Of a stretch of DNA of 64,000 nucleotides, positions 39,234-48,998 are shown in pieces. The stretch's first letter is position 1; each line of letters starts with the position of its first letter. The notes below the pieces were generated by a model that searched no databases, was not told where the DNA came from, and was given only the letters and a program-made list of their open reading frames with translations. Origin of the DNA: an uncultured Dehalococcoidia bacterium. Lineage in GTDB: Bacteria > Chloroflexota > Dehalococcoidia > Lucifugimonadales > GCA-2712585. The stretch spans positions 2,395,141-2,459,140 of the forward strand of contig OX638324.1 of NCBI GenBank assembly GCA_951812825.1, in the 5' to 3' direction. The position numbers were made by a program, and so were the translations under genes.

Positions 39234-40367
39234 CTATTCGAACCCGTAGACCCGCGCGGCGTTGCCTCCGACAATCTTGTCCTGCTCCTCCTCCGGCACG
39301 CCCTCCAGAATCTCATCCAGAATGCGCTGTGACTCGGGGAAGGTGGACTCGGCGTGGGGATAGTCGGAGCCCCACATCAGGTTGTCCACGCCGATGATGT
39401 GACGCATCTGGACGCCGAGGGCATCCTCCTGGAAGCTGTGGTACACGTTGGAACGCATGAAGTCGCTGGGAATCGTGTCCCCCTTGAACCGGTAAGGGGC
39501 GGCCTGGTACCGCTCCTTATATGTGACGTCCATCCGGCCAATGAAGAAGGGAATCCACCCCAGCTCGTGCTCGGCGCTCACAATATTGAGATTGGGGTAG
39601 CGTTCCAGCACACCGGCAAAGACTATGTGTCCCAGGCACTGCCGGACGAAGTAGTCGTGGTTGCAGCGGTCTGCGCCCGTCTGGGCAATCTCGCCGTCTA
39701 TGACTACCTGCACGGCCCCCGGCCGGTTGGTGGTCACGTGAAGGCTGATGGGCATGTTCAACTCTTCCGCGGCGGCCCAGAAGGGTTCGTACATGGGATG
39801 ATTGTAAGTCTGTCCCGCCTTCGGGTAGGAGCTAATCATCGCCCCCACCAAGCCCATCTCGGCGCAACGTCGCAACTCGGCAATTCCCTCATCCACCCCG
39901 TCGTCCAGCAGCACTTCGGCTATACCCTTGAGCCTGTCGGGATAGGCGCTGCAGAATTCCGCCAGCCAGTCGTTGTAGGCGGCGAACACTGCCCGGAGCA
40001 GGTCGTTGTTCTCCATCCCGTAGAGGGGCAGGCCCGTAGACGGGTAGACCAGCCCGCCATACACGCCGTCCATGTCCATGTCCTTCACGTGCTCTTCCGG
40101 TATGAATCCGCCCGGCCTCACATTGTCGAAGACTCCGGCCTGGATGATCTCCTGGGGGTTGGTGAACCGCTTGCCCGCGGCGGCGATGGCCCCCGTGGGG
40201 CCCATCTTGATGTTGTCGTAGTACCACCAGTCGTAGGGGTCTTCGTCGCCACCCTTACGCAGATGGGGGATGCTGGTGCCGAACTTGGGGTCCATCCGGT
40301 CTTCCCATAAATTGGGCGGCTCCACAACGTGAGAGTCTGAAGATATAACCTTGCCGTAGAGGGCCAT
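39234..40367 (-). CDS. Amidohydrolase family 2 (ACMSD-like) paralogue 1
   Basis: 377 aa, TIM-barrel metal-dependent hydrolase or decarboxylase of PF04909. The N-terminal metal site is SSDSHVVEPPNLWEDR, the barrel histidine is in ISLHVTTNRPG, and the C-terminal aspartate is in LMWGSDYPHAESTFPES. Such proteins decarboxylate or hydrolyse cyclic carboxylates; substrate unknown. Five of these proteins are encoded in this window and this one, with the copy at 54489, belongs to the DSHVVEPP / SDYPH type. Strong GGAGG ribosome site. Confidence 0.88.
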   Translation of the reverse strand: MALYGKVISSDSHVVEPPNLWEDRMDPKFGTSIPHLRKGGDEDPYDWWYYDNIKMGPTGAIAAAGKRFTNPQEIIQAGVFDNVRPGGFIPEEHVKDMDMDGVYGGLVYPSTGLPLYGMENNDLLRAVFAAYNDWLAEFCSAYPDRLKGIAEVLLDDGVDEGIAELRRCAEMGLVGAMISSYPKAGQTYNHPMYEPFWAAAEELNMPISLHVTTNRPGAVQVVIDGEIAQTGADRCNHDYFVRQCLGHIVFAGVLERYPNLNIVSAEHELGWIPFFIGRMDVTYKERYQAAPYRFKGDTIPSDFMRSNVYHSFQEDALGVQMRHIIGVDNLMWGSDYPHAESTFPESQRILDEILEGVPEEEQDKIVGGNAARVYGFE

Positions 40368-41954: not shown

Positions 41955-42360
41955 TCTACCGGCTTGGAGGAAGGCCCCCACTGCTTAAAGTTGACTCGAT
42001 GAGTCTGAAGTTCCGCAAAGGTTTTGCCATCTTCACAACCGTCGTCCTGCCGTGACTATGCACCGTGCTCTTGACGGCCAGGCAAGAGGACAAAAGGCTC
42101 TTGCACTACATCTTCACGCTGCTAGCCGCCGCTCTCTTCGGCTACGCTCTATTCCGGCTGAAGCTGGCATGGGACAAGGAAGAAAATCGGACTTGACCAA
42201 GTCCCCCACCATGGCATCCACCCCACGGCGTACTGCCTCGAAGTCAACGAGAATCCCACCATAGACCCGCGAAGGCAATGTGTTATGATTGGTTCCAAGG
42301 CCAGCCTGGCCGCTTCGCAACTTGAATTATGTCAATAACATATCCGCTCTTCGATCTGAT
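41955..42360. other. 406-base region after manC with a broken small gene
   Basis: Contains only the TGA-interrupted frame at 41999-42196. No terminator is obvious after manC. Other short frames here are not protein-like. Confidence 0.5.
41999..42196 (+). pseudogene. Small two-TM membrane protein frame interrupted by TGA
   Basis: A 66-codon frame (ATG 41999, TGA stop 42194) is interrupted at codon 19 by TGA (42053-42055). Before it is a basic start and a hydrophobic stretch (KGFAIFTTVVLP) and after it LCTVLLTARQED and LLHYIFTLLAAALFGYALFR, together a two-segment membrane protein ending KLAWDKEENRT. A TGG-to-TGA nonsense change (LPWLC) is the simplest reading. CTCTTG/CAAGAG forms a stem 10 bases after the TGA, but its 9-base loop lacks the G/U of a SECIS, so selenocysteine is not supported. 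Confidence 0.4.
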
Positions 42361-42816
42361 TTGACCATCAGTCTGGGCAAAGCGCTGTTCCGTCGAAAGA
42401 TGCTCTTAGCGGTCACGGTTCTAGCCCTCCTCACAACGCTTCTTGTGCCCCTGCTAGGCCCGCTGGTAGACCATCACTTCGCCGAGCGTCAGCCCGGCCA
42501 TCTGCACGTCTACCTCACCGGCATACCCACCCAGCACCTTCACCATCACGAGGCCTCCCATTCCCACGACGCTCCCGTCTCAGATTCCTCCGGCATCGAG
42601 GCAGCCGGGCCCGTACTTGAAAACAGCGTCATATTCATGCCCCAAGACGGCGAAGGCCTGTCCGTCTCATCCATTGGCATGACCCTCGCCCTTCTCACGA
42701 CGGTTGTCGCTCTGGCCCTACCGACCATGCTCACTCTCCTCATGCCCCTAAGCCAGCGCGCTCCACGGGGCATCACTCTCTACCCGGAACCGCCTCCGCC
42801 GCGCCCGGCTCTCTAG
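42361..42816 (+). CDS. His-rich two-TM membrane protein
   Basis: About 151 aa. N-terminal membrane segment after a basic stretch (KALFRRK), a His-rich external loop (VDHHF...HLHVYLTG, QHLHHHEASHSHDAP) and a C-terminal segment (SIGMTLALLTTVVALALPTM) with a Pro-rich tail. The His clusters suggest Cu, Zn or Ni binding. The start is uncertain: TTG 42361 keeps the basic N terminus, ATG 42400 is also possible, and neither has a ribosome site. First of four genes that look like a metal-handling cluster. Confidence 0.6.
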   Translation: MTISLGKALFRRKMLLAVTVLALLTTLLVPLLGPLVDHHFAERQPGHLHVYLTGIPTQHLHHHEASHSHDAPVSDSSGIEAAGPVLENSVIFMPQDGEGLSVSSIGMTLALLTTVVALALPTMLTLLMPLSQRAPRGITLYPEPPPPRPAL

Positions 42817-42895
42817 ACTTCTCGCGTCCGAAACCCCATCCCGGACCGGACGGCAACCCGCTGTCGGATAGCCCTATGAGCGTAGCACCTGGCAA

Positions 42896-43447
42896 ATGAC
42901 GAAAGGCAGTCTATTAACCGCAGCCCTGGCCCTGGGCATGCTGGCGGCAGCGTGGCTCGGAGGCTCGCAAGCCTCGGCCAACGGGATCCACGCCGGCAGC
43001 AGGGAGGTCTTCTCCGGAAGCGTAGGCTCCCACTTCATGCGGGTCACCACCGCACCTTTCCTCGGAACAATGCACTTCGTGGTATTCCTGGCGCAGTCCG
43101 ACGAAGTACGACCCGTAGAGGCAGCCGAAATCACCCTGTGGGGACGCTCCACCGGCGAAGAAATCTGGACTGCGGGTCCCGCAGCCGGCGTACCCTCCCT
43201 GGACGGCCCTAACCTGTATACCGTGGACCTGGACGTGGATGCAATCGGCCAGTGGCTGTTCACCGTCAATGTAAGGAGCCCTCTGGGAGAGGCTTCCGCC
43301 GAAATCCCCCTGACTGTGGGCCGACGCGGTAGCGTAAACCTGGGAGTGGTTGGCATCCTGCTTGTTCTGGTGGTCATCGTTGGTCTGGTGGCCCTATCCT
43401 GGGGAAAGAAACGACGGAGACGCGGGGGAAGCGGCGCAAGAAATTAG
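42896..43447 (+). CDS. Membrane-anchored YtkA/FixH-like beta-domain protein
   Basis: 183 aa: N-terminal signal segment, an extracytoplasmic beta-sandwich (residues about 30-145; MHFVVFLAQSDEVRPVEAAE, GQWLFTVNVRSPLGEASAEI), then one membrane segment and a very basic cytoplasmic tail (KKRRRRGG). The order resembles YtkA-like and CopC-like domains in copper and cytochrome-oxidase operons. No metal-ligand set is certain. It lies between the His-rich gene and the cupredoxin-like lipoprotein. Confidence 0.6.
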   Translation: MTKGSLLTAALALGMLAAAWLGGSQASANGIHAGSREVFSGSVGSHFMRVTTAPFLGTMHFVVFLAQSDEVRPVEAAEITLWGRSTGEEIWTAGPAAGVPSLDGPNLYTVDLDVDAIGQWLFTVNVRSPLGEASAEIPLTVGRRGSVNLGVVGILLVLVVIVGLVALSWGKKRRRRGGSGARN

Positions 43448-43482
43448 GTCCCATGCACGAAATCAACGAAAAGGAGTGACGA

Positions 43483-44271
43483 ATGCCAAAGTCAATAATC
43501 ACGACCTGGCTTCTATTCCTGGCCCTAGTGGGCGCAATGATGGTTGCAGCATGCGGTTCTAGTGGCGAGCCGGAAGAGGTAACCTTCGACCTGCGAATTG
43601 CAGACCGCGCCATAGCAGGCTTCGAATCCGGCCTGGAGGTGAAGCAGGACGACATCGTCACCTTCAACATAACCTCCGACGAACCCACCAGCTTCCATCT
43701 TCATGGCTACGACCACGAATTGGAGCTTGCTCCTGATGTGACGGAAAGCTTTGCCTTCACCGCCAACGCAGCAGGCAGCTTTCCCATCACCGTGCACGTA
43801 GGCACAGGGTCCGGCGGCGAAGGGCACCACGAAACGGCCGTGGCTAAGGACCACCACGAGTTAAAGATGGGGACTCTATTGGACATGACCGTAAGCGTTG
43901 AGACAAAGCTGGACGGCGATTCCGCGGTGAACCTCAAGATCACCACCGAAGGATTCACCTTTGCGCCGGAGAGAGTCAACGGGCCCCACATGGATGGCGA
44001 GGGTCACGCCCACGTCTACGTGGACGGGGTGAAGATCAACCGCATATACGGGCCCTACTACCACCTCGGAGGCCTCACCCCTGGTGAGCGCTCCATCCGA
44101 ATCACCCTCAACGCCAATAGCCACGAGCAGTACGCCAGGGGCGGCCAGCCGGTGGAAGCTACAACCACCGTCGTCATCCCCGGCGAAGCTAAGGAGATTG
44201 CAGACCATGAAGCCTCTGCATCAGAGCCTACGGAAATCGACTTGGGCCGGCTGATAGTGCTGCCCAGGTAA
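43483..44271 (+). CDS. Cupredoxin-like lipoprotein with His-rich loop
   Basis: 262 aa, lipobox VAAC (Cys24). The N-terminal domain reads like a cupredoxin (QDDIVTFNITSDEPTSFHLH, then ESFAFTANAAGSFPITVHV) with histidines at the copper-site positions. A loop GEGHHETAVAKDHHELK adds more histidines. A second domain (FTFAPERVNGPHMDGEGHAH) is also His-rich. Strong AAAGGAG before the ATG. Probably binds copper or another transition metal outside the membrane. Confidence 0.7.
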   Translation: MPKSIITTWLLFLALVGAMMVAACGSSGEPEEVTFDLRIADRAIAGFESGLEVKQDDIVTFNITSDEPTSFHLHGYDHELELAPDVTESFAFTANAAGSFPITVHVGTGSGGEGHHETAVAKDHHELKMGTLLDMTVSVETKLDGDSAVNLKITTEGFTFAPERVNGPHMDGEGHAHVYVDGVKINRIYGPYYHLGGLTPGERSIRITLNANSHEQYARGGQPVEATTTVVIPGEAKEIADHEASASEPTEIDLGRLIVLPR

Positions 44272-44307
44272 AAGTTAGATGATTCCACTGGAAGGAGCGG
44301 TGACGGT

Positions 44308-45852
44308 ATGCGCCCATTCACACGGGTAGCCCTGGTGGGCGGGGTTCTCGGCCTCATCGCAGTTGTGCTTTCGCCGGCCACGGCCTACGCCCACGGCTTC
44401 GGCGAACGGTACGACCTGCCCGTTCCCCTGTGGCTCTACGTCACCGGCGCCGGCGCTGCCGTCGCCCTCTCTTTCGTCGTCATCGGCGTCTTCATACGGG
44501 GAGACGGCGGGCACCGCCAATACCCACGTTTCAACCTGCTAAGGTGGCGGATATTCAGGCTGCTTTCCCATCCCGTTGCCCTTCTGCTCCTCCGGCTGGC
44601 GTCCGTCGGCCTCTTTCTGCTGGTAGTCATCGGGGGCCTTGTGGGGGAGCAGGAACCGACGGACAACCTGGCCCCCGTACTGGTCTGGATCCTCTGGTGG
44701 GTGGGCTTGGCCTACGTGTCGGCGTTGGTGGGCAACGTGTGGGCCATCATCAATCCCTGGAAGATAATCTACGGCTGGGTGGAATGGGTTTTCTCCACCG
44801 CCACCGGCGCCAAAGAGCTAAGTCTGGGATACCAATATCCAAGGAAACTCGGCGTCTGGCCCGCCCTTGTGTTGTTCTGGGCCTTTGCCTGGATCGAGCT
44901 GGTCTACGTAGACTCCGCAATCCCCGCCCATCTGGCCCGCTTCGTCATCAACTACTCTATCATCACCTGGGCGGGTATGCTCATCTACGGCAAGGACCCG
45001 TGGCTCCGACACGGCGAGGCTTTCACCCTGGTCTTCGGCTTCCTGTCCAAGTTCGCGCCCACCGAAGTCCGTTCCCTGGACGAGTCCACCTGTCGGGAAT
45101 GTCCCCTGGATTGCCGCGACGAGGACGACGGGTGCATAGACTGCGGGCGCTGTTTCCGCCGGGCTCCCCACGAACAAAGGGAGTTCAACCTCCGCCCCTT
45201 TGCCGCCGTACTTCTCCGCAACGAGGTGGTCTCCACCTCCACGGCAGCCCTAGTTGTCCTGCTGCTTTCTACGGTAACCTACGACGGCCTCACCGCCACG
45301 CCCCTCTGGGTGTCGATTCACGACAGCCTTAGCCGCGCCTTTGCGGGCAGCAGCGAGGTCGTGGGTACGCTGGGGCTCCTCGTCTTTCCGCTGTTGTTTG
45401 GCCTGGTATACATGGCCACGGTGTGGTTCATGGCCCGCCTCGTCGACCGTCCTGAAGCGCTTTTCAAGCTGGCACGCACCTTCGTCTACTCCCTCATCCC
45501 CATCGCCCTGGCCTACCATCTGGCCCACTTCCTATCGTTCCTGCTCATCCAGGGGCAGCTGGCCGTTCCCCTCGCCTCGGACCCCCTGGGCATGGGTTGG
45601 GACATCTTCGGCACAGTTGACTACCAGACCAATCTGCGGGTCATAGGCGCGCGCACAACCTGGCTGCTGGCCGTTGCCGCCATAGTGGCAGGACACATCA
45701 TATCCGTGTTCCTGGCCCACGCCATAGCCCTGCGCACCTTCAAAGACCGGAGAATCGCTCTCAGAAGCCAGCTTCCCATGCTGGCGCTTATGGTAGGCTA
45801 CACCATGGTCAGCCTCTGGATTCTCGCCCAGCCTATAACCGAAGCGGGCTAG
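44308..45852 (+). CDS. Polytopic membrane protein with a six-Cys cytoplasmic loop
   Basis: 514 aa, about 10-12 membrane segments. After a signal-like start the mature part begins AHGFGERYDLPVPLWLYV, a motif conserved in a family often annotated as fenitrothion-hydrolase-like membrane proteins of unknown true role. Between membrane blocks a soluble loop has six cysteines, C-x2-C-x3-C-x6-C-x2-C-x2-C (TCRECPLDCRDEDDGC IDCGRC), a possible iron-sulfur or zinc site. GGAAGGAG precedes the ATG. Last gene of the cluster, with the cupredoxin gene 36 bases upstream. Confidence 0.7.
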   Translation: MRPFTRVALVGGVLGLIAVVLSPATAYAHGFGERYDLPVPLWLYVTGAGAAVALSFVVIGVFIRGDGGHRQYPRFNLLRWRIFRLLSHPVALLLLRLASVGLFLLVVIGGLVGEQEPTDNLAPVLVWILWWVGLAYVSALVGNVWAIINPWKIIYGWVEWVFSTATGAKELSLGYQYPRKLGVWPALVLFWAFAWIELVYVDSAIPAHLARFVINYSIITWAGMLIYGKDPWLRHGEAFTLVFGFLSKFAPTEVRSLDESTCRECPLDCRDEDDGCIDCGRCFRRAPHEQREFNLRPFAAVLLRNEVVSTSTAALVVLLLSTVTYDGLTATPLWVSIHDSLSRAFAGSSEVVGTLGLLVFPLLFGLVYMATVWFMARLVDRPEALFKLARTFVYSLIPIALAYHLAHFLSFLLIQGQLAVPLASDPLGMGWDIFGTVDYQTNLRVIGARTTWLLAVAAIVAGHIISVFLAHAIALRTFKDRRIALRSQLPMLALMVGYTMVSLWILAQPITEAG

Positions 45853-45906: not shown

Positions 45907-47034
45907 TTAAAGCTGGAAGCCGTAGAGCGCGGCTGCGTTGTCCCGAATTACCTTCTGCTTGGCCGAAGCGTCGTCCAGGTCTCGAAGATTCTCTTCGATA
46001 GTCTGGATGGAGTCCGGCCACACGCCGTCCTGGTGGGGATAGTCGGAGCCCCAGATGACGTTGCCAGCGCCTACCAGGGGAATCAGCTGGCCGGCCACGT
46101 TCTCCTTCTGGAACGTGGAGAAGCCCTGCCGGTTCCAGTATTCGCTGGGCAGCATGGAGATACCCGACTGGCCCTCGCCCTCGTGGTCCATCCGGTCGAT
46201 GACGTAGGGTATCCAGCTAACGCCGCACTCGCCCAGAACGAACTTGAAATTGGGGTATCGCTCGCAGGCGCCGGAGAAGATGATGCTGGTGACGAACTCA
46301 GCCCCCTGAAGCTGGAACATGGTAGTCCGAACGTTGTGGTAAACCTCGTCGTACTCGGAAGCTTCCGAGCCTTCAATCCCTCGCGGCAGCAGGCCCGTGG
46401 TGTGGAACGAAAGGGACAGGCCTGTGTCGTGGGAAGCTTCCCAGAGCGCATCCCAGTCCCGGTGATAGATGGGCTTGACCGCCCCCGCCACGCCAAAGTC
46501 GCCGCCATGGAGACCGAGGTCCGCAGCCCGGCGAAGCTCGTCGGCCGCCGCCTGTGGGCTGTGGTTGGGAATACAGGCCAAACCGGCGAATCGCCCGGGA
46601 TAGCTCTTGCAGAAGTCCGCCAGCCAGTCATTGTAGATACGGAAGATTTCCACTATCTGGTCGTTGTCGTTGAGAGTATGAGAAATCCGTAGAAGGCCGT
46701 ATATCACCTCCGCGTCAATGCCGTCCTTGTTCTGGTCCTTGATGCGGAGGTTGGGATTGGTGGGATGATACCCCTGGTCGGCGTCCTCATAGAAGCCGGC
46801 CTCAATCATGGCGTTCCAACGGGTGCCCATCTCCGTGCTGAAGGTGGTCGCGTCCACGCTGTGACCAACCACGCCCAAGTCCACTCCACCGGCGTTCCAG
46901 CGGCGGCCCTCATCGGTGTCCACCACATGGGGCATCCTGTCCCTCATGGCGGGCGACGCGTTGTCGACGAAAAGCTCCTCCGGCATAAACCGCAGGTCTA
47001 TGTGGCTGTCCCCGGAAATTATATTGTAACCCAT
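45907..47034 (-). CDS. Amidohydrolase family 2 paralogue 2
   Basis: 375 aa. SGDSHIDLRFMPEELF at the N-terminal metal site (no Glu-Pro-Pro), SFHTTGLLPRGIE in the barrel, and VIWGSDYPHQDGVWPDS at the C-terminal metal aspartate. The ATG at 47034 fits the ribosome site better than a GTG four codons earlier. Divergent in sequence from the other four paralogues, so probably a different substrate. Confidence 0.85.
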   Translation of the reverse strand: MGYNIISGDSHIDLRFMPEELFVDNASPAMRDRMPHVVDTDEGRRWNAGGVDLGVVGHSVDATTFSTEMGTRWNAMIEAGFYEDADQGYHPTNPNLRIKDQNKDGIDAEVIYGLLRISHTLNDNDQIVEIFRIYNDWLADFCKSYPGRFAGLACIPNHSPQAAADELRRAADLGLHGGDFGVAGAVKPIYHRDWDALWEASHDTGLSLSFHTTGLLPRGIEGSEASEYDEVYHNVRTTMFQLQGAEFVTSIIFSGACERYPNFKFVLGECGVSWIPYVIDRMDHEGEGQSGISMLPSEYWNRQGFSTFQKENVAGQLIPLVGAGNVIWGSDYPHQDGVWPDSIQTIEENLRDLDDASAKQKVIRDNAAALYGFQL

Positions 47035-47193
47035 GGTTGTTCCCACCTCATTTCAGGTTTTTCTGTACGAGACGTTGCCGTTTTCGACGCTTTGTAGGTG
47101 TTCTTCTCCTGCAAGTGTCAATCGTCGTTTGCCAGATGTTATTGAAGTGCCCCTTCAGTGTCAAGAATACACCCAAGCCGATGTAAAGCAAAA

Positions 47194-47271: not shown

Positions 47272-47817
47272 TTAAGGGTTCACTTCCCAACTTGCTTCAA
47301 CGTTTACTGCCTGCAGGGGGAAGGGGTTGAAGAACACAATATGATGCTCCCCGCTCGTCTCGGCTTCAACTGTTGCCGAGCCCGAGTCCGTTGTGTCGTC
47401 AACGGTTAACATCGCATCCCCCGAGGGCCCGTTAATCACCAGCTGTATCCCTTCGGCGGCTCCGCCAATTCCGGCGCTGACGTTTTGGCCTCCTGTAATA
47501 CTTGACGCTACCTCGAAACTCAATTCCAGGATGTCGCCAGGGTTCAATACGATTGTGATGATCCCTGATTCGCTGGCGGTGATGAACAGCGTCTCTGAAC
47601 CGGACGAGGATTCTCCTTGCTGAGGAGCTGCCGCTGTGGTCTCAGCCGCAGCCTGTGTGGCAGGTGCGGCCGTTGCCGGCGCCGTGGTGGCGGCGGGGGC
47701 CGGACTTTCGTTGTCGCCGTTTCCACCACCGCAGGCCGCCAATAGCAGCAGGAGAAAGACGGAAAGACCCACCGCGTACAGAGCAGGGTGTCTAAGCCTA
47801 GAGCAAATCTGCATCAT
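47272..47817 (-). CDS. Lipoprotein of unknown function with a GOLD-like beta domain
   Basis: 181 aa, lipobox LAAC (Cys29), an Ala/Thr/Pro-rich linker (residues 35-75) and a beta-rich C-terminal domain (IVLNPGDILELSFEV, TTDSGSATVEAETSGEHHIV, FFNPFPLQAVNVEASWEV). The pattern resembles bacterial emp24/GOLD-like or pre-peptidase-type domains that bind partners outside the cell. The ATG has GGAGAA upstream. It stands alone with its own terminator. Confidence 0.65.
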   Translation of the reverse strand: MMQICSRLRHPALYAVGLSVFLLLLLAACGGGNGDNESPAPAATTAPATAAPATQAAAETTAAAPQQGESSSGSETLFITASESGIITIVLNPGDILELSFEVASSITGGQNVSAGIGGAAEGIQLVINGPSGDAMLTVDDTTDSGSATVEAETSGEHHIVFFNPFPLQAVNVEASWEVNP

Positions 47818-47867: not shown

Positions 47868-48998
47868 TTAGGCGTGGGGATGGCCGGCAACCAGCCGCTC
47901 TCCGTAAATCTTGACTGAGTTGTCCCACAGGATCTTACGCTTCGTATCCTCCGACAGCGGCTGCTCCATCATGTTCGCCAAAGGCTCGTTCGTCGCCGGC
48001 GCGTCAGGATGCGGATAGTCCGTGTTGAACACGATGTTGTCGTCCCCAATGTAGTCCACCACGTACTTGATGGAAGGTTCGTCCGCGTCGGCGGCCACGG
48101 CGCACTGTCGCAGGAAGTACTCCTGGGGCGTCATGTCCAACGGATGCTCGTCGAAGAACACCGACTGACGACCCTCGCAATACTTCTCCAGCCGGTTCAG
48201 CCAGAAGGGCACCCAGCCGGAGTTCGCCTCCAGAATCAGCAGTTTCAGGTTGGGAAACTTGTCCAGAATGCCACTGTACATGAAGTGGCCGAGGTTGATC
48301 ATGTTCTCGAAGGGGAAGCCGATGGCCTGACCCAAGGCAATGAAGGGCCCGGCGTACGTGTTGTAGCGGGCGTTAGCCCAGGGATCTCCGCTGGCGCTGC
48401 TGCTCCCGTGTACCGAGATGGGCACGTCCAATTCCGTGACCGTCTCCCACACCTTGGTGTAGTCAGGATGATGCCACATCTTCTCCGGGATGGCCTTGGG
48501 CAGAAATACGGAAACGGCCCCCAATTCGGAAACCGACCGGCGAATCTCTGTCACCATGTCGTCTATGTCATGTCCCGGCACCGTGGCGGTGAATTTGATC
48601 CGCTCCGGCGCGCCGCTGCAGAAGTCGTGGGCCCAGCTGTTGTAGGCGACGCACATGGCACCCTGCACGTCGTCGGGAATGAAGCCGGGCAGCGAAACAG
48701 CCTTCGTAGGCAGACACACCTGAATGTCCCAGCCCTCCGTGTCCATGTCCTTGATGCGACTTTCCAGGGTCCAGCCATCCCGGAAGGCGTGGCCAAATTT
48801 ATTGTCCATCTCGGAAAAGAGCTTCTCAGAACGGGAAACTCCACCTTCCTCACCCTCGAACTGGACCATGGAGTTGCCCAGCATCCTGGCAACCCGAGGC
48901 CTCCTGTCCTGGAACTCCGCGCTCAGGTACTTGTCCCAAAGGTCTTCAGGCTCGTAGAAATGTCCGTCTGCGTCGATTACCCTGAATCCGTTTCGCAT
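47868..48998 (-). CDS. Amidohydrolase family 2 paralogue 3
   Basis: 376 aa. VIDADGHFYEPEDLWDKY at the metal site, ISVHGSSSASGDP in the barrel, IVFNTDYPHPDAPATNE at the aspartate. With the paralogue at 57437 it forms a subgroup (MRNGF start, NTDYPHPDAP end) distinct from the SDYPH copies. Ribosome site GGAG 9 bases upstream. Confidence 0.87.
   Translation of the reverse strand: MRNGFRVIDADGHFYEPEDLWDKYLSAEFQDRRPRVARMLGNSMVQFEGEEGGVSRSEKLFSEMDNKFGHAFRDGWTLESRIKDMDTEGWDIQVCLPTKAVSLPGFIPDDVQGAMCVAYNSWAHDFCSGAPERIKFTATVPGHDIDDMVTEIRRSVSELGAVSVFLPKAIPEKMWHHPDYTKVWETVTELDVPISVHGSSSASGDPWANARYNTYAGPFIALGQAIGFPFENMINLGHFMYSGILDKFPNLKLLILEANSGWVPFWLNRLEKYCEGRQSVFFDEHPLDMTPQEYFLRQCAVAADADEPSIKYVVDYIGDDNIVFNTDYPHPDAPATNEPLANMMEQPLSEDTKRKILWDNSVKIYGERLVAGHPHA

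Follow-up and report, generated by a model that had tools for sequence, protein, structure and literature searches.

The locus

The subject of this report is a cluster of four genes, here denoted A, B, C and D, in the genome of an uncultured Dehalococcoidia bacterium (GenBank assembly GCA_951812825.1). The window analysed, a stretch of 64,000 nucleotides, is part of a single 2.47 Mb contig, OX638324.1, and its close relatives are Dehalococcoidia/SAR202. All four genes are present as open reading frames (ORFs) on the forward strand, span positions 42289-45852 of the window and are separated by gaps of 79 (A-B), 35 (B-C) and 36 (C-D) bp, in agreement with a preliminary description of the locus that listed four consecutive, co-directional genes. 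None of the library families searched describes the A-D set.

42289..42816, forward strand: gene A, small His-rich membrane-anchored protein, 175 amino acids (aa) from TTG
42896..43447, forward strand: gene B, signal peptide, beta domain and C-terminal transmembrane (TM) helix, YtkA-like
43483..44271, forward strand: gene C, lipoprotein of 262 aa with a cupredoxin fold, whose last strand is preceded by an inserted second beta domain
44308..45852, forward strand: gene D, polytopic membrane protein of 514 aa with about 10 TM helices once the signal peptide is removed

Gene A had been assigned a start at 42361, which is indeed an in-frame TTG, but the longest ORF begins upstream, at 42289; from a further in-frame ATG, at 42400, the protein would have 138 aa. 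Comparison with the copy of the cluster from the same genus (locus L083) yields ratios of nonsynonymous to synonymous substitution rates (dN/dS) of ~0.29 for B, 0.29 for C and 0.26 for D, with dS >1, that is, purifying selection.

A cupredoxin-fold lipoprotein without Cys ligands

By both sequence profile and structural model, the product of gene C has the cupredoxin fold. Compared with the PDB, its profile finds copper nitrite reductase at E 7.8e-7, nitrosocyanin at 1.9e-5 and, more weakly, the CuA domain of oxidase subunit 2 at 0.0026. The model (predicted local distance difference test, pLDDT, 83; predicted template modelling score, pTM, 0.49) aligns best with nitrosocyanin, with a Z score of 11.3 and a root-mean-square deviation (rmsd) of 2.0 over 86 aligned residues drawn from residues 33-261. 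The secondary structure implies that residues ~136-232 would be inserted before the last cupredoxin strand. In Sulfitobacter, a PCu(A)C protein encoded next to D ends in a region similar to this inserted domain (34% identity over 99 aa, E 7e-21).

43552..43554, forward strand: lipobox (AACG) Cys24 of C, the sole Cys of the protein (Cys in 52 of 74 aligned homologues)
43696..43713, forward strand: HLHGYD motif of C, with His72 and His74 (each His in 68 of the 74; invariant in 36/36)
43795..43797, forward strand: His105 of C (His in 65 of the 74 aligned homologues)
43888..44178, forward strand: inserted GHAHVYVDG domain of C, residues ~136-232, similar to the Sulfitobacter PCu(A)C protein

The lipobox, the fold and the His clusters (14 His in total) bear out the original description of C as a cupredoxin-like lipoprotein with clustered histidines. 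The Cys that serves as a copper ligand in type 1 and CuA carriers is absent from mature C, beyond the lipobox Cys24, and C is therefore unlikely to be an electron carrier of either type. The natural reading of the sequence is that C would be a copper carrier.

A polytopic membrane protein with invariant histidines

None of the 27 diverse members of the D family that were tested matched a Pfam family (E 0.01), and a single one of them yielded a weak NapH match in NCBIfam (E 7.5e-4). The structural model of D (pLDDT 91.2, pTM 0.88) is confident except near the mature N-terminus. A Foldseek search of PDB structures with this model produced no confident match (best E 0.063), and the best alignment obtained with VIA-align (Z 8.0, rmsd 5.6, 129 residues), to an unrelated helical protein, is read as a chance arrangement of helices and speaks neither for nor against a new fold. 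The inner loops contain 26 lysines and arginines in 172 residues, compared with 3 in 91 residues of the outer loops; from the helices together with these charges, the N-terminus is therefore predicted to be outside and a six-Cys loop to be cytoplasmic.

Conservation in D was assessed in an alignment of 27 members, including archaea and actinobacteria (A1), and in a separate alignment of 63 sequences. The following positions stand out:

44389..44430, forward strand: AHGFGERYDLPVPL motif of D, with the predicted mature N-terminus, His29, at 44392-44394 (His in 63/63)
45526..45528, forward strand: His407 of D, in helix TM8 (63/63; invariant in A1, archaea included)
45694..45720, forward strand: His463 and His471 of D, in helix TM9 (63/63; invariant in all 27 sequences of A1)
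45091..45153, forward strand: six-Cys loop of D, on the predicted cytoplasmic side (72 of 109 D proteins have the strict pattern)

The residues that precede His29 fit a signal-peptidase site in all 63 sequences (A or G at -1; A, V, T or L at -3), so the predicted cleavage would leave His29 as the free N-terminus. A free N-terminal His is a known means of binding copper, the histidine brace, as in YcnJ and YcnI (PMC12362106). The preliminary description had taken AHGFGERYDLPVPLW for the start of D; this motif begins at residue 28, at the predicted signal-peptide cleavage site, not at the N-terminus of the gene product. Counting of helix turns from the outer ends, as set by the helix boundaries, suggests that His407 and His463 are located at a similar depth in the membrane and His471 closer to the cytoplasm.

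The six-Cys loop has exactly the spacing that had been noticed at the outset, C262-x2-C265-x3-C269-x6-C276-x2-C279-x2-C282. The strict pattern is absent from 37 of the 109 D proteins, which otherwise keep the same invariant residues and neighbours, and none of the haloarchaeal, actinobacterial or rhizobial sequences in A1 has it; in a separate listing of D proteins, it is carried by 29 of 43 and missing in 14. Because the strict pattern is missing so often, the loop cannot be the common function of D, and its candidacy as the functional core was rejected. The original proposal that the loop is an iron-sulfur or zinc site involved in electron transfer or sensing is accordingly unsupported as far as the core function is concerned, and the data can be explained without an iron-sulfur or sensing role. 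The pattern also differs from the CxxCxxCxxxCP signature of the CcoG/NapH-type iron-sulfur membrane proteins.

The Cys loop is lacking in a D subgroup (loci L058, L060, L029 and, judged by its neighbour, L062). In L058, L060 and L062, a gene of 1091-1231 aa, representing one sequence cluster, precedes D in place of C; in the sole member tested (L062), Pfam assigns it to the Sortilin/BNR family.

The name 'fenitrothion hydrolase' (FedA/FedB), considered for D-like database entries, was carried by no annotated match, and literature searches gave nothing that concerned it. Nor did literature searches list a recognisable publication on the D family, which is weak evidence of absence for a family without a searchable name. 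D represents an unannotated family of membrane proteins that are likely to handle copper.

Genes A and B

The product of gene A is His-rich, has hydrophobic stretches at both ends and matches no Pfam or NCBIfam family above the cut-off. The collected loci contain 22 homologues; in aligned homologues, His71, His73 and His85 are kept in 21/21, and His62 and His63 in 20/21.

42469..42567, forward strand: His cluster of A, DHHFAERQPGHLHV...H.H...H.H

Together with the His residues of C, these histidines are conserved in homologues, which had been named as a check on the preliminary description. For B, a YtkA- or FixH-like identity had been guessed. The YtkA part of the guess receives weak support from the homologues of B, 11 of 29 of which match YtkA (PF13115; best E 8.6e-5 with a limit of E 0.1), but the B protein of the window itself has no YtkA match at E 0.1 in the same scan. 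The profile of B also matches a PDB entry titled 'Copper resistance protein' (E 2e-4).

Conservation of the C-D pair

D is matched in 43 of 60 related genomes; among the 33 with completeness of 90% or more and contamination of 5% or less, 27 have a match. A scan of a genome collection yielded at least 316 loci that encode relatives of D; the best 80 of these, which were fetched, are mostly from Chloroflexota, and the others are labelled Rokubacteria, Rubrobacter, alpha-, beta- and deltaproteobacteria, and Nitrospinota (these are labels of metagenome-assembled genomes and may be wrong). Matches on plasmids of isolates comprise 63 records, from Variovorax, Rhizobium, Mycobacterium, Rhodococcus, Pseudonocardia, Sulfitobacter and haloarchaea among others, and 16 of these, chosen for diversity, were opened. 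After the removal of 17 duplicates, 126 D proteins gave 109 non-duplicate loci. All neighbour counts in these loci are lower bounds because the gene caller loses some short genes, such as A in the window and a Variovorax cupredoxin (L075, 7595-7951).

The C-D pair recurs far more widely than the full A-B-C-D order. A C-type cupredoxin with an HxH motif is encoded directly upstream of D in 63 of the 109 loci and within three genes of it in 65, and the pairing spans Chloroflexota, Actinomycetota and proteobacteria. B is found within three genes of D in 53 loci and A in 15, and all three accompany D, scored as the exact order A-B-C-D, in at least 13. A search for the same gene order elsewhere had been suggested as a check on the cluster, and by these counts the cluster is conserved.

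Haloarchaeal D genes are accompanied by a small C2H2 zinc-finger-like protein with one TM helix, encoded in the place of C or just downstream:

L168, 6310-6576: haloarchaeal C2H2-like small protein
L169, 6393-6650: haloarchaeal C2H2-like small protein
L077, 9314-9589: haloarchaeal C2H2-like small protein

In Neorhizobium (L076) and Sulfitobacter (L167), D stands beside genes of nicotinate degradation (6-hydroxynicotinate reductase, and molybdopterin oxidoreductase or nicotinate dehydrogenase).

The copper context of D

Another copper gene is located within three genes of D in 20 of the 109 loci (CopC-CopD in 11, SCO1 in 5, a copper-type P-type ATPase in 3 and PCu(A)C in 2), and either C or another copper gene in 77. 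These are counts of sequence clusters, with Pfam identity checked on one to three members per cluster; in 11 of the 109 loci, CopC-CopD takes the position immediately upstream of D that C occupies elsewhere. The three copper-type ATPases form one BLAST cluster with a single Pfam-checked member. One of these three, that of the M. gallinarum locus, may not be of the copper type, as an ATPase read there has SPC instead of CPC. In nine of the 16 plasmid regions, a C homologue or a gene specific for copper lies near D, and one region is unannotated; in three more (Halolamina, Haloarcula, Haloferax), the sole candidate is a P-type ATPase for heavy metals or cations that has a CPC motif, its metal unproven. 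Profile comparison identifies the gene that precedes D as a C homologue in Pseudonocardia (99.1%) and M. chubuense (95.9%); in M. rufum, M. vanbaalenii and Rhodococcus, the identification was made by eye, from the HxH motif. On the plasmids of M. dioxanotrophicus and M. chubuense NBB4, genes for copper membrane monooxygenases are close to D. Two genes upstream of D in M. dioxanotrophicus lies a gene for a 353-aa His-bearing protein with no Pfam family (L079, 6332-7393).

In Sulfitobacter, a PCu(A)C gene (L167, 5886-6644) that is divergent from D is fused to the GHAHxYxDG domain that it has in common with C. This domain of the fusion matches no Pfam family above the cut-off and seems to be a hitherto undescribed partner of copper chaperones. 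The fusion lends the copper reading independent support. The initial view of the cluster as possibly a metal-handling system, with copper indicated by the cupredoxin and His clusters, has gained support from a conserved copper context in several phyla, and the link to copper can be considered well supported by gene context.

The host genome contains two COX2 genes and one 848-aa frame with two HMA domains, the size of a copper P-type ATPase; in a Pfam search of this genome, there was no match to SCO1, PCu(A)C or Cu-oxidase_3, and CopD was found below the cut-off only. COX2 is present in 56 of the 60 close relatives, so its co-occurrence with D among them is uninformative. Across 151 genomes of the phylum, COX2 was found in 34 of 36 D-positive and 85 of 115 D-negative genomes (Fisher p 0.009, kinship ignored; E limits 1e-10 and 1e-5; G074, missing from the list of positives, was counted as COX2-negative). 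In three genomes (G013, G012 and G049), COX2 lies within ~12 kb of D.

Flanking genes

The cluster is flanked by an amidohydrolase gene, a gene for a GDP-mannose-type nucleotidyltransferase and further amidohydrolases. The three Amidohydro_2 genes, two identified by Pfam and the third by eye, are the following:

39234-40367, reverse strand: Amidohydro_2 gene
45907-47046, reverse strand: Amidohydro_2 gene
47868-48998, reverse strand: Amidohydro_2 gene

In the same-genus locus L083, D is likewise followed by an amidohydrolase-like gene; none was seen after D in the other relatives, so these genes are considered to lie outside the unit. Between two of the amidohydrolases, at 47272-47817 on the reverse strand, a short lipoprotein with a weak match to the GOLD domain is encoded. 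A promoter scan detected nothing above chance, and a terminator scan found six terminator-like sites, none of them directly 3' of D.

Comparison with known systems

The cluster resembles the CopC-CopD and YcnJ-YcnI systems, as these are presented in PMC12362106, in that an outer copper-binding domain stands beside a polytopic membrane protein with conserved His, and in the mature N-terminal His, which in D is the predicted His29. According to the same account, the outer domains of YcnJ (a CopC-CopD-YtkA protein) and YcnI in Bacillus subtilis hold Cu(II) by an N-terminal His and exchange copper, and the CopD domain of YcnJ is the proposed importer (PMC12362106). YcnJ/YcnI is the closest working parallel to the cluster. 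The outer partner here is a cupredoxin, not CopC or DUF1775, and none of A, B, C and D matches the CopC domain (PF04234); the YtkA-like part, which belongs to YcnJ itself, is here a separate gene, B. The Pfam CopD domain (PF05425) was found in 0/27 D members, and the comparison of D by hhalign with 12 neighbouring CopC-CopD proteins gave a probability of 0.3%; the candidacy of D as a CopD was rejected on these two grounds. As regards the major facilitator superfamily (MFS) domain of the CcoA/CalT copper importers, the 27 D members gave no Pfam match, and the best Foldseek match of the D model had E 0.063.

With nitrosocyanin and FtrB, considered here as Cys-free cupredoxins, C has the cupredoxin fold in common, nitrosocyanin being matched for the fold alone; C differs in its HxH motif and His105, in the GHAHxYxDG domain before the last strand and in having no mature Cys ligand. 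PCu(A)C and SCO1 occur in the same neighbourhoods as D, and one PCu(A)C protein shares the inserted domain of C, but A-D belong to neither family. The affinity of B to YtkA-like proteins is that of its homologues, the window copy falling short of the E 0.1 limit.

A proposed function and its alternatives

Taken together, the observations are best explained by a role of the cluster as an envelope unit for copper acquisition or delivery, comparable to CopC-CopD or YcnJ-YcnI but built around an unrelated membrane protein, a proposal that we consider to have an even chance of being right. The conservation of the genes, the pairing of C with D, the copper context, the fold of C and the conserved residues of D are shown by the data; that copper is the ligand, that it passes from C to D and that it moves inward, we infer. 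Under this scheme, the lipid-anchored, Cys-free C would bind copper through the HxH motif and His105, aided by the His-bearing GHAHxYxDG domain, and hand it on to D, with A acting as a His-rich, membrane-tethered copper scavenger and B as a YtkA-like accessory. D, the membrane core, would accept copper at an outer site to which the mature N-terminal His29 contributes, and pass it by way of His407, His463 and His471 to the cytoplasmic face; there, in those members of the family that have it, the six-Cys loop might receive the copper. The copper would feed aerobic copper enzymes, in this organism most likely cytochrome c oxidase. The more specific proposal, that D represents a new family of membrane importers for copper that is unrelated to CopD and CcoA, extends over several bacterial phyla and haloarchaea, and combines a dedicated Cys-free cupredoxin donor, an N-terminal His, three intramembrane His and a cytoplasmic Cys loop, is a possibility that we advance tentatively, with somewhat more doubt than belief.

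Several observations speak against this interpretation. The N-terminal region of the D model is of low confidence (mean pLDDT 44 for residues 21-30), position 29 is Gly in one haloarchaeal copy of D, the annotation of actinobacterial copies shows no clear signal peptide, so that the N-terminal His site is weaker in archaeal and actinobacterial copies, and the subgroup of L058, L060 and L029 is devoid of the AxA site. Copper neighbours are missing around D in 3 of the 16 plasmid regions (Neorhizobium, Haladaptatus and Sagittula), and in 32 of the 109 loci neither C nor a scored copper gene is found within three genes, some of these loci being truncated or having lost small genes to the gene caller. 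The association of D with COX2 is modest and confounded by phylogeny.

The main rival is the assembly of copper enzymes without net transport, whereby C and D on the outer face would load CuA/CuB or other membrane copper enzymes in the manner of SCO1 and PCu(A)C. The proximity of SCO1 or PCu(A)C to D in several loci, of COX2 in the three genomes mentioned above and of copper monooxygenases on the mycobacterial plasmids all fit this scenario, as do the failure of the Pfam search to find SCO1 and PCu(A)C in the host genome and the role in oxidase metal loading that PMC12362106 ascribes to a YtkA paralogue of B. subtilis. However, a protein with ten TM helices, three invariant His within the membrane and a Cys loop on the cytoplasmic side exceeds the needs of an assembly factor, and D is also found beside P-type ATPases, away from oxidase genes. 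We deem this scenario unlikely, albeit worthy of serious consideration.

Appreciably less probable is a membrane cupric reductase or electron-transfer protein, functionally akin to CcoG, in which the intramembrane His would bind haem and the six-Cys loop an iron-sulfur cluster, so that D would reduce copper or exchange electrons with C. The location of the invariant His407 and His463 on neighbouring helices is compatible with haem binding, the weak NapH match points in the same direction, and CcoG, as described in PMC7558416, offers a precedent. By contrast, 37 of the 109 D proteins lack the six-Cys pattern, as do the A1 sequences of haloarchaea, actinobacteria and rhizobia, its spacing differs from CxxCxxCxxxCP, and C does not possess the Cys ligand of electron-transfer cupredoxins.

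Copper export or resistance appears slightly more improbable still. P-type ATPases neighbour D in haloarchaea and some other loci, and a multicopper oxidase does so in M. gallinarum, but most neighbours of D serve copper delivery (cupredoxin, CopC-CopD, SCO1, PCu(A)C) or are copper enzymes, and the accounts given in PMC12362106 and PMC7558416 link CopC-CopD-type proteins to uptake. Finally, ferrous iron uptake of the FtrABCD kind, in which the cupredoxin FtrB works with an iron permease, is very improbable: the model of C does match FtrB (8vuk, E 4.6e-4), which according to PMC11966278 binds Cu(II) and oxidises Fe(II), but no FTR1-type iron permease was matched by Pfam in the 27 D members, no RExxE motif was seen by eye in D, and the gene neighbours indicate copper.

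Implications

Bacterial inner-membrane copper import is poorly understood, and according to a review, further systems likely exist that are uncharacterised (PMC7558416). As a widespread family without a Pfam entry, with copper neighbours in several phyla and a cupredoxin partner, D is a concrete, testable candidate for import or delivery. In the ocean-type SAR202, the genome analysed here having cytochrome c oxidase genes and no SCO1 or PCu(A)C matches, the cluster may fill a gap in the supply of copper to respiration. The same findings give a lead to the function of a hitherto unannotated gene beside the copper monooxygenases of Mycobacterium. More generally, the occurrence of the C-D pair in bacteria that are only distantly related makes it a good candidate for one of the missing systems of copper uptake or delivery.

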